DNA of 64,000 bases from Cliona cf. orientalis. Taxonomy: Eukaryota > Porifera > Demospongiae > Clionaida > Clionaidae. Made by a program: the position numbers and the translations under genes. The notes below the pieces were generated by a model, which had not been told where the DNA came from, did no database searches, and saw only the letters and a program-made list of their open reading frames with translations. Shown here in pieces: positions 21,156 through 61,761 of this stretch. The stretch covers positions 5,442,135-5,506,134 of the forward strand of contig OZ005692.1 of NCBI GenBank assembly GCA_963930775.1. The letters are read 5' to 3'. How positions within the stretch are numbered: the first letter of the stretch is position 1; each line of letters begins with the position of its first letter.

Positions 21156-23135
21156 TACACTATTCAAAGATTTACTCCAGCGTTAACTGGCAGGAAAGAG
21201 TGTAGGGGTACACTCTTTCCTGCCAGTATTACTTGGGAAATTGGGGGTTAAAATAGTGTGGGGGTACACAAAGGTCAATGCCCGCGTATTACTGGGAGGA
21301 AACAGTGTAGGGGTACACTCTTTCCTGCCAGTATAACGGGAAAGAAAGAGTGTAGGGGGTACACTCTTTCTGGCCAGTTAATATCGGGAAGAGGAGAATG
21401 CAGGGGTACACTCTTTCTTGCCAGTTAATAGTGGGCAGAGAAGAGTGCAGGGGTACACTCTTTCTTTCCAGTATTAGTAATAGTCGGGAGAGCAATAGTG
21501 TGGGGGTACACACTTTCTTGCCAGTTAGTAAGCAGGCAGAGAAGAGTGCAGGGGTACACTCTTTCTTTCCAGTATTAGTTAGATTCGGGAGAGAAATAGT
21601 GTGGGGGTACACTCTTTCTTGCCAGTTAGTAAGCAGGCAGAGAAGAGTGCAGGGGTACACTCTTTCTTTCCAGTATTAGTTAGATTCGGGAGAGAAATAG
21701 TGTGGGCACTGGGGGTACACTCTTTCTTGCCAGTTAGTAAGCAGGCAGAGAAGAGTGCAGGGGTACACTCTTTCTTTCCAGTATTAGTTAGATTCGAGAG
21801 AGAAATAGTGTGGGGGTACACTCTTTCTTGCCAGTTAGTAAGCAGGCAGAGAAGAGTGCAGGGGTACACTCTTTCTTTCCAGTATTAGTTAGATTCGAGA
21901 GAGAAATAGTGTGGGGGTACACTCTTTCTTGCCAGTTAGTAAGCAGGCAGAGAAGAGTGCAGGGGTACACTCTTTCTTTCCAGTATTAGTTAGATTCGAG
22001 AGAGAAATAGTGTGGGGGTACACTCTTTCTTGCCAGTTAGTAAGCAGGCAGAGAAGAGTGCAGGGGTACACTCTTTCTTTCCAGTATTAGTAAAAATCGG
22101 GAGAGCAATAGTGTGGGGGTACACTCTTTCTTGCATTGCCAGTTAATAAGCAGGCTGAGAGTGCAGGGGTACACTCTTTCCTTATCGCAGTGTGGATGCA
22201 CTGTTTTATCTTGGGTAGCTGGCTAGCTATACTCCTTCAGTGCATAATATGCGCATAATGGCAAAGAAAGAGTGTACCCCTGCACTCTTCTCTGCCTGCT
22301 TATTAACTGGCAAGAAAGAGTGTACCCCCCCCCACACTATTGCTCTCCCAAGTTTTACTAATACTGGAAAGAAAGAGTGTACCCCTGCACTCTTCTCTGC
22401 CTGCTTACTAACTGGCAAGAAAGAGTGTACCCCCACACTATTGCTCTCCCGACTATTACTAATACTGGAAAGAAAGAGTGTACCCCTGCACTCTTCTCTG
22501 CCCACTATTAACGGGTAAGAAAGAGTGTACCCCTGCACTCTCCTCTTCCCGATATTAACTGGCCAGAAAGAGTGTACCCCTACACTCTTTCTTTCCCGTT
22601 ATACTGGCAGGAAAGAGTGTACCCCTACACTATTGCTCTCCTGACTTTTACTAATACTGGAAAGAAAGAGTGTACCCCTGCACTCTTCTCTGCCTGCTTA
22701 CTAACTGGCAAAAAAGAGTGTACCCCCACACTATTTCTCTCCCGAATCTAACTAATACTGGAAAGAAAGAGTGTACCCCTGCACTCTTCTCTGTCTGCTT
22801 ACTAACTGGCAAGAAAGAGTGTACCCCCACACTATTTCTCTCCCGAATCTAACTAGCTAATACTGGAAAGAAAGAGTGTACCCCTGCACTCTTCTCTGCC
22901 TGCTTACTAACTGGCAAGAAAGAGTGTACCCCCACACTATTGCTCTCCCGACTATTACTAATACTGGAAAGAAAGAGTGTACCCCTACACTATTTCCTCC
23001 CAGTAATACGCGGACATTGACCTTTGTGTACCCCCACACTATTTTAACCCCCAATTTCCCGAGTAACACTGGCAGGAAAGAGTGTACCCACTCTTTCCTG
23101 CCAGTTAACGCTGGAGTAAATCTTTGAATAGTGTA
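21156..23135. mobile_element. Giant fold-back element 1 (101-bp repeats in inverted arms)
   Basis: A 1.98-kb palindrome. The ends are TACACTATTCAAAGATTTAC at the left and its reverse complement at the right. The matching arms run inward through distinct subterminal motifs (TTAACTGGCAGGAAAGAGTG, AATTGGGGGTTAAAATAGTG). Then come 101-bp tandem units holding GAGTGCAGGGGTACACTC and CTTTCTTGCCAGTTAGTAAG. The arms meet around 22180-22250. If TA is the target duplication (21156-21157, 23134-23135), the ends read CACTATTC, fitting a Tc1/mariner-like element. No transposase is present. Many open frames on both strands are simple consequences of the repeat. Confidence 0.85.
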
Positions 23136-26105: not shown

Positions 26106-26178
26106 GCTTGAGCTATGAGTGTCAAGTCTATGGATGTACTTGATTGCTGTGCCTGGGAAACAAATCCTTCCATGTTTT

Positions 26179-28125
26179 GGCTATATCTTCATGTAAGAAT
26201 CATAAAGTATGAATATCATTAAGTATATTATTGCAGTTGCATATGGTTGCCTAAAGTTGCCAGAGTCTCCACCCAGTTGTTGCTGAGTTGCCAGCAGTTG
26301 CCCGTTGTAGCCCAGGGTTGCCAGAGTCTCCACTGACACTCCTATTTGTTGCTGAGTTGCCAGCAGTTGCCCGTTGTAGCCCAGGGTTGCCAGAGTCTCC
26401 ACCATCCCCTCCCAGTTGTTGCTGAGTTGCCAGCAGTTGCCCGTTGTAGCCCAGGGTTGCCAGAGTCTCCACTGTCACTCCTATTTGTTGCTGAGTTGCC
26501 AGCAGTTGCCCGTTGTAGCCCAGTGTTGCCAGAGTCTCAACCATCCCCTCCCAGTTGTTGCTGAGTTGCCAGCAGTTGCCCGTTGAAGCCCAGTGTTGCC
26601 AGAGTTTCCACCATCCCCTCACAAGAGTTGCTGAGTTGCCAGCAGTTGCCCGTTGTAGCCCTGGGTTGCCAGAGTCTCCACCACCCCCTCCCAGTTGTTG
26701 CTGAGTTTCCAGCAGTTGCCTGTTGTAGCCCAGTGTTGCCAGAGTCTGTGACCATCCCCTCCCAGTTGTTGCTGAGTTGCCAGCAGTTGCCCGTTGTAGC
26801 CCAGAGTTGCCAGAGTCTCCACCATCCCCTCAGAGAGTTGCTGAGTTGCTAGCAGTTGCCTGTTGTAGCCCAGGATTGCCACAGTCTCCACTGTTCCTCC
26901 CAGTTGTTGCTGAGTTGCCAGCAGTTGCCCGTTGTAGCCCAGAGTTGCCAGAGTCTCCACCATCCCCTCAGAGAGTTGCTGAGTTGCTAGCAGTTGCCTG
27001 TTGTAGCCCAGGATTGCCACAGTCTCCACTGTTCCTCCCAGTTGTTGCTGAGTTGCCAGCAGTTGCCCGTTGTAGCCCAGTGTTGCCAGAGTCTCCACTG
27101 TCCCTCCCATACAGTTTTTGCTTAGTTACCAGCAGTTGTCTGTTGTAGCCCAGTGTTGCCAGAGTCTCCACTATCCGCTCACAGGAGTTGCTGAGTTGCC
27201 AGTAGCTGCCTGTTGTAGCTCAGTGTTGCCAACCTGGAGACTGTGGCAACACTGGGCTACAATGGGCAACTGCTGGCAACTCAGCAACAACTGGGAGGGG
27301 ATGGTGGAGACTCTGGCAACACTGGGCTACAACAGGCAACTGCTGGCAACTCAGCAACTCCTGTGAGGGGATGGTGGAGACTCTGGCAACCCTGGGCTAC
27401 AACGGGCAACTGCTGGCAACTCAGCAACAACTGGGAGGGGATAGTGGAAACTCAGGCAGCCCTGGGCTACAACGGGCAACTGCTGGCAACTCAGCAACTC
27501 CTGTGAGGGGATGGTGGAGACTCTGGCAACACTGGGCTACAACGGGCAACTGCTGGCAACTCAGCAAAAAATAGGAGTGACAGTGGAGACTCTGGCAACC
27601 CTGAGCTACAACGGGCAACTGCTAGCAACTCAGCAACAACTGGGAGGGGATGGTGGAGACTCTGGCAACCCTGGGCTACAACGGGCAACTGCTGGCAACT
27701 CAGCAACTCCTGTGAGGGGATGGTGGAGACTCTGGCAACCCTGGGCTACAACGGGCAACTGCTGGCAACTCAGCAACTCCTGTGAGGGGATGGTGGAGAA
27801 TCTGGCAACCCTGGGCTACAACAGGCAACTGCTGGCAACTCAGCAACAAATAGGAGTGACAGTGGAGACTCTGGCAACCCTGGGCTACAACGGGCAACTG
27901 CTGGCAACTCAGCAACAACTGGGAGGGGATGGTGGAGACTCTGGCAACCCTGGGCTACAACGGGCAACTGCTAGCAACTCAGCAACAACTGGGAGGGGAT
28001 GGTGGAGACTCTGGCAACACTGGGCTACAACGGGCAACTACTGGCAACTTTAGGCAACCATATGCAACTACAATAATATACTTAATGATATTCATGCTTT
28101 ATGATTCTTACATGAAGGTATAGCC
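26179..28125. mobile_element. Giant fold-back element 2 (70-bp repeats in inverted arms)
   Basis: A 1,947-bp palindrome flanked by an exact 8-bp duplication, CATGTTTT (26171-26178 and 28126-28133). Ends are GGCTATATCTTCATGTAAGA and its near reverse complement. Unique subterminal arms (AATATCATTAAGTATATTAT) lead into 70-bp tandem units containing GTTGCTGAGTTGCCAGCAGT and GCCAGAGTCTCCAC: about 14 units in the left arm and 11-12 in the right. The arms meet at about 27232 with almost no spacer. No transposase gene. The build (long inverted ends made of tandem repeats) resembles Drosophila Foldback and Galileo elements (known), but the sequence is unrelated by eye. Confidence 0.88.
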
Positions 28126-28840
28126 CATGTTTTGTAAAGCTGGGGATTCAAATAAACAAGAATCAGTTGATAAAGTACTCCATCAATAATTTTGATGATG
28201 ATCAAGCAGTGAGATCATTGCTCCTGGCATCAGAGAGAAACAGCCAGTATTGAGCAAACCACACTTTATACGACTGTATGGTATGAGGACAAGATGTCTA
28301 AGAAGGAGAGTGAAAATAGTGGTTAAGATAAACCCAGTAGGAAGAATGACAGGTAAGGAGATGAGCCATCTATTCAGTTGATCATTCCCACCAGTGTAGC
28401 ATTTCTTAAAGACAACACAAGACCAGGTGGTGGATATTAAGAGGATGACAAGTGAAGGTAACCAAGCCAATACTACATAGGATATCATAGCAATGGTTAA
28501 TCTTGCTGAACAATTAAAAGCGGCTCGAACATTTTGGCCAGGGCAGAAGTCTGTGCATCCTATATAAGCGTTCATCATTTAAAACGGCACTTTCAGTTGC
28601 AAAAATTGTCCCAACACCAACAGCAAAAGCTACACATCCACATGTAGTCTTATGGTTTACATACTTCTTTTTATCAGTGATAATCACAAGCTGGCAAAGG
28701 ACAATACTTGCATATGCTATCAATCTGAAACTTAAAGTCAACGGTCAAGATGATTGATATCTTGCACTCAGGATAGGAGAGCAACTACGGTGCCGCAGAG
28801 CTGATGGATAATAAATGAAAAATACTATGCTAAGTAATGT

Positions 28841-56181: not shown

Positions 56182-61761
<5,580 letters not shown>

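Follow-up and report, generated by a model that had tools for sequence, protein, structure and literature searches.

What is the near-perfect palindrome of 1,947 bp that lies at positions 26179-28125 of a 64,000-nucleotide stretch of the genome of the sponge Cliona cf. orientalis (contig OZ005692.1, positions 5,442,135 to 5,506,134; hereafter the window), and by what means did it arrive there? The original prediction, made from the letters alone, took it for a giant fold-back element. We conclude that it is very probably a non-autonomous cut-and-paste fold-back DNA transposon with a palindrome that formed once, ends that are recognised by an outside transposase and array units that most likely serve as docking sites for that enzyme. 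It represents a new family within the known fold-back transposons, real but fairly ordinary.

From left to right the element consists of a unique end, a series of 70-bp units, an abrupt switch of orientation, inverted units and an inverted end, and both ends start with GGCTATA. The left unique terminus (GGCTATATCTTCATGTAAGAATCATAAAGTATGAATATCATTAAGTA..., 26179-26235, plus strand) pairs with 28069-28125. Its inner part (26236-26271, plus strand), delimited by reading the sequence and lining up the ends, carries three GTTGC motifs 10 bp apart and runs into the left array (26272-27231, plus strand), in which Tandem Repeats Finder recognised 13.7 copies of the 70-bp repeat at a period of 69 bp and GTTGC occurs on the plus strand only. 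At the centre of the palindrome (27225-27250) GTTGC gives way to GCAAC, and the right array (27235-28049, minus strand) comprises 11.7 copies of the same repeat, inverted, at a period of 70 bp. It is followed by the right inverted terminus (28050-28125, minus strand); over their outer 76 bp the two ends can be aligned gap-free with three mismatches, and the longest ungapped inverted match between the arms spans 409 nt with 95% complementarity. Exact copies of the 8-bp sequence CATGTTTT flank the element at 26171-26178 and 28126-28133. These are the only two sites of this sequence on the plus strand of the window, three more being found on the minus strand. The two inverted repeat arms with almost no spacer, as well as the unique inverted ends between exact 8-bp copies, are as originally described, whereas the word "giant" overstates an element of this length.

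To place the element in its genomic context, 216.8 Mb in 149 contigs were searched (C numbers denote contigs, L numbers loci; repeat counts from these searches are lower bounds). The family has at least seven copies on seven contigs, six of them complete and one truncated. Besides the window copy, the complete copies are located at C9:4292501-4294346 (duplication AATATAAC), C1:14479431-14481274 (TACTGGTT), C11:2066368-2069100 (GATAGCTA), C17:3039929-3041088 (CAAAATTT) and C14:1721948-1723267 (GAAGTTCC), and range from 1,160 to 2,733 bp in length. All six are bordered by an exact 8-bp duplication that is private to the copy, so that the further copies with 8-bp duplications foreseen in the original prediction do exist. 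The truncated copy (C2:2292742-2294714) has lost its left end, and an upstream search gave no exact partner for its right flank. All 13 ends of the seven copies start with GG; 10 of the 13 have the commonest form over 47 bp, while the other three, including the left end of the window copy, differ from it at one or two bases.

Empty sites were sought by comparing the six joined flanks, with one copy of the duplication kept, against the genome (40 of 350 candidates scored). For the window copy this revealed a paralogous empty site at C7:4538125-4538407, which matches the joined flanks (300 bp) at 81%, junction included, and contains a single CACGTTTT and no element. For the copy at C1:14479431, many repeats match the joined flanks across the junction (best match 96%). 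The paralogous site, in which the target sequence stands only once, identifies at least the window copy as an insertion; the private duplications indicate the same origin for the other five complete copies. An assembly artefact, or a local inverted duplication unrelated to transposition, is the least probable of the explanations weighed here, and extremely improbable: seven copies with a shared centre lie on as many contigs, each of the six complete ones has a different exact duplication of its own, and an empty site is present. On these grounds of sequence an artefact can be considered excluded in practice.

In all seven copies the GTTGC motifs run inward from the ends (the C2 copy lacking the left one) and change direction only once. 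The central junction is homologous in all seven, in either orientation, and falls into two subtypes, that of the C17 and C14 copies and that of the rest. As all copies share this one junction, the palindrome was formed once. The arms, in turn, differ in length between arms and between copies, with 3 to 21 recognised units per arm (21 versus 8 in the C11 copy), counts that miss degenerate units. When 133 units were compared, the nearest relative was found only in another element for 46, only in the same element for 23 and in both (tied) for 64; the copies therefore share unit variants. Ends and arrays fill all seven copies, with motifs throughout and no space for a gene. The proposal of a new family moved by a transposase encoded elsewhere thus holds as regards a dispersed family without room for a gene, but not as regards a gene-bearing relative, none of which came to light among the transposase-domain places listed below.

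How would such an element move? We infer that a transposase encoded elsewhere recognises the unique ends of approximately 57 bp and excises the element, mobilising it in trans. Insertion by an 8-bp staggered cut would then generate the 8-bp duplications, and it is this insertion with duplication that is visible at the copies. The palindrome, once formed, was dispersed as a whole by transposition, and the arm arrays would later have gained and lost units, in keeping with the observed change in arm length. The array units are most likely extra transposase-binding sites, to judge from their GTTGC core, their single polarity, their spacing of often one helical turn, and the analogy with Galileo, whose tandem repeats hold secondary transposase-binding sites as determined by footprints and gel shifts (PMC3688188).

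The terminus is also found outside the family, in older relatives that have one end only. A 24-base end pattern, allowing up to three mismatches, gave 20 matches in the genome and none for the reversed-pattern control; 13 of the 20 are the family ends. Related ends stand ahead of a different array (type B) at C1:19683576 and C3:8351035, ahead of a tandem series of 10-bp units (type C) at C13:429297, and ahead of an array with a 9-bp period at C5:4129052. A fifth related end lies at C11:5890435, and the remaining two matches (C3:10544433 and C12:4111437) have three mismatches each, arrays having been assessed at the other 18. In the stretches read at the five related ends, neither a second end nor an exact 8-mer partner was detected; one-mismatch 8-mers were present, none of them beside a matching end. 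At C3:8377270 the inner part of the end is matched, the outer part has an AT-rich interruption, and the stretch read contains one end only and no tandem array. When a 19-base pattern was used instead, again allowing up to three mismatches, 95 matches were obtained versus 21 for its reversed control, so that its three-mismatch matches mean little, and about 20 of the 95 belong to one other repeat, GGCTAATACTTCATGTAAG. Among its two-mismatch matches, those at C11:409786, C2:1346341 and C6:10877126 were rejected, as the likeness stops after the first 19-21 bases; the first of these has an rva_4 domain at a distance of 2.6 kb, which was judged to be due to chance. A further new two-mismatch match is located at C1:31669718, likeness beyond the pattern having been assessed at the other three. 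L053:378-2217 contains approximately 184 copies of the 10-bp unit AGCAACAGTA beside one diverged copy of the family terminus, and has the appearance of a satellite that grew from a transposon end.

The arrays were then compared for periodicity and motif content. At a lag of 10, the arms of the window element matched themselves at 0.41-0.43, the two type B arrays at 0.50 and 0.45 and the type C array at 0.75; the C5 array reached 0.26, its peaks being at 9 and multiples of 9. Read inward, GTTGC was counted forward and reverse 51/0 times in the left arm of the window element, 59/0 and 8/0 times in type B and 158/0 times in type C. Degenerate units without such an end at locus L055 gave 19/1 as read, and an unrelated palindrome of the window gave 0/0. 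The maxima obtained by first-order Markov resampling (500 each) were 11 for the window arm, 9 and 3 for type B, 33 for type C, 4 for the C5 array, 7 for L055 and 4 for the unrelated palindrome. Spacings at multiples of 10 made up 50/58 in type B on C1, 5/7 in type B on C3, 157/157 in type C and 4/18 in L055. Three array types share the GTTGC core and its direction and the fourth does not; types A and B may share the motif by descent. A more far-reaching reading of these data, to which we give rather little credence, is that one terminus, GGCTATACCTTSATRTAAGAATCA..., was joined to at least three separately expanded arrays sharing only the GTTGC core, one direction and often a 10-bp register. 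Arrays would then have been built repeatedly around one binding motif, phased docking sites would let fold-backs outcompete their master, and the transposase would be of a class new to fold-backs (Merlin or a new one).

As to which transposase moves the family, the positions of the end matches were compared by eye, within approximately 10 kb, with lists of transposase-domain matches. These comprised 67 places for Merlin (DDE_Tnp_IS1595), at least 58 matches for Mutator-like elements (MULEs), of which 56 exceed the cut-off and for which 150 of 153 candidates were scored, 68 places for KDZ (67 over the cut-off), at least 148 places for hAT (150 of 230 candidates scored) and at least 150 rows for rva_4 (150 of 736 candidates scored). 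Many of the weak rva_4 rows match no more than the first residues of the query, a part derived from an inserted short repeat. Two KDZ places (C1:35811362 and C2:7427195) lie about 3 kb outside a three-mismatch end match, a hAT fragment (C3:8343751) lies 7 kb outside the end at C3:8351035, and an rva_4 domain (C2:2280059) lies 12 kb past the side on which the C2 copy is truncated. A Pfam scan of ten open frames that adjoin this copy, related ends or weak end matches gave no transposase; it returned carbonic anhydrase, ankyrin and COR-A in one frame each and nothing in the other seven. The COR-A frame adjoins the truncated copy (L048:458-2101, minus strand), continues open into the repeat array and also has a weak Death-domain match below the cut-off.

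The chief candidate classes, neither of them proven, are Merlin, on account of GG ends and 8-bp duplications, and Mutator-like, on account of subterminal short repeats and 8-9-bp duplications. Movement by a Merlin (IS1016/IS1595-type) transposase, which would make the family a Merlin-derived fold-back, is an appreciable possibility. Merlin elements have 5'-GG termini and 8- or 9-bp duplications, and some Merlin families contain internal tandem repeats (PMC8101967); here GG was found at 13/13 ends and 8 bp at 6/6 complete copies, and the genome contains the Merlin-domain matches listed above. Twelve of the 67 Merlin loci were read, and four of them (L070, L071, L073 and L075) have GG-starting inverted ends and an exact 8-bp direct repeat, that of L070 being ambiguous because its 8-mer TATATATA is self-complementary. 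However, past the GG the ends of these loci are not convincingly like those of the fold-back family, none of the 12 carries the family end or a GTTGC cluster, and all 67 places are more than 10 kb away from every end match. The Merlin paper (PMC8101967) does not contain the word "Foldback", and for a Merlin-type fold-back with tandem-repeat terminal inverted repeats the open-licence literature yielded a single plant review. The Merlin elements at L071 and L075 themselves sit within a larger inverted pair, GACCGGATTTGGGAAAACCCTCCG, with exact 8-bp ACAAATGT flanks in L075 and inexact flanks in L071.

A Mutator-like transposase, as in the Muta families of Aedes or the nematode element Tm1, is a somewhat unlikely source. 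MULE duplications measure 8-11 bp and mostly 9; the 8 bp observed here are within that range but uniform. Aedes Muta1 and Muta5 have 8-9-bp duplications and subterminal tandem repeats of 9-15 bp (PMC5225508), and Tm1 has similar ends with mostly 9-bp duplications (PMC3169594), features that resemble those of the window family. MULE-domain matches are also present in the genome. The Muta and Tm1 families, on the other hand, have coding members, terminal motifs of only 7-10 bp (versus a unique end of approximately 57 bp here), Muta ends of about 150 bp and duplications that mix 8 and 9 bp or are mostly 9 bp, and every listed MULE place is more than 10 kb from the end matches. Some other or undescribed class (hAT, KDZ, P or new) is an appreciable possibility too. 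The hAT and KDZ matches are numerous, but the ends of hAT and P transposons usually begin with CA or TA, and the lone listed neighbour situated inward of an end match is a weakly matching hAT fragment (C1:27250503), 10 kb in from the three-mismatch match at C1:27260484.

Very improbable as a master copy is a large element of C11 and C19 resembling IS3EU, which attracted attention as a carrier of degenerate 70-bp units: L055 at about 2350-3200 matches the unit at approximately 70% (E 2.4e-33), and an rva_4 integrase domain is present in the element. It terminates in TATGGCACG...CGTGCCATA and is flanked by 6-bp duplications, the published signature of IS3EU (TA..TA ends and usually 6-bp duplications; PMC10045372). 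The fold-back family has GGCTATA ends with 8 bp, and this speaks against the element as the master. The units within it are more likely an old fold-back insertion. The element itself spans L061, L055 and L063 (C11:171072 to approximately 185701) and, on C19, L056, L062 and L064. Its arms are inverted, measure at least 1.7 kb and show 100% identity over the part aligned on C11. Close to either end there is an rva_4 domain, the termini read TATGGCACG, and the flanking 6-bp duplication is CGAATG on C11 and CGGACC on C19. An insert of about 220 bp with 26-bp inverted ends (L055:1297-1520) is present in the C11 copy only, the C19 copy being otherwise 99.8-100% identical.

Several observations weigh against a transposase-driven family with docking-site arrays. 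No cognate transposase lies beside matching ends among the listed rva_4, Merlin, MULE, KDZ and hAT places (P-type transposases were not searched), nor did these places include the full-length, transposase-encoding relative for which the original prediction proposed to look. Among the 40 of 350 candidates scored, four complete copies had no empty site, only their own flanks being recovered, and the paralogue read for the copy at C1:14479431 differs by three bases at the junction. The related end at C11:5890435 adjoins no array, the C5 array has GTTGC 1/1 times without enrichment, and in the window arm only 23/50 GTTGC spacings are multiples of 10. Finally, GTTGC was picked after inspection of the data, and tandem expansion multiplies any motif and so inflates the counts.

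In structure the family belongs to the class of Drosophila Foldback (FB), with tandem repeats in long inverted ends, dispersed copies with duplications and a variable number of units. In FB itself the long inverted ends combine a unique outer part with short tandem repeats built on approximately 10 bp, and the duplications are of 9 bp; compared by description, the likeness lies in the repetitive inverted ends, whereas the window element has 8-bp duplications and a 70-bp unit. The TU elements of sea urchins, with long inverted ends, tandem-repeat outer domains and 8-bp duplications, are similar by description too. Structural likeness in outline is closest to Tetris, Tm1, Muta1 and Galileo, in addition to FB and TU. 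Galileo, of the P superfamily in Drosophila, has long, internally repetitive inverted ends and two-ended copies without transposase (PMC3688188, PMC3573991); by description it differs in having 7-bp duplications, against 8 bp in 6/6 copies here. Tetris of Drosophila virilis is a non-autonomous fold-back with tandem repeats of approximately 220 bp in its ends, 8-9-bp duplications at complete copies and no master found (PMC4079207). Tetris has a middle domain of variable size, whereas the arms here are almost spacerless and built of a 70-bp unit. No account of fold-back transposable elements in a sponge genome was found in the open-licence literature.

The window holds a second, unrelated palindrome at 21156-23135, with units of approximately 101 bp in both arms, ends CACTATTCAAAG and TA flanks. 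It has many inverted pairs genome-wide: with 40 of 162 candidates scored, at least 303 pieces match it. Tandem-armed fold-backs are a recurrent feature of this genome. The window further holds cadherin, kinase and amidase domains, and a 250-bp TC microsatellite (61219-61468) through which a reading frame stays open as Leu-Ser repeats.

Long palindromes with almost no spacer are fragile sites that may also give rise to hairpin RNA. Fold-back transposons seem to come from several transposase classes, and the reason for their repetitive arms is a standing question. The sponge family adds modestly to the annotation of transposons, and to that question it brings a natural series: one terminus, several arrays, seven close copies with differing unit numbers, and an empty site. 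Given the transposase, the idea that array units act as docking sites would become directly testable.
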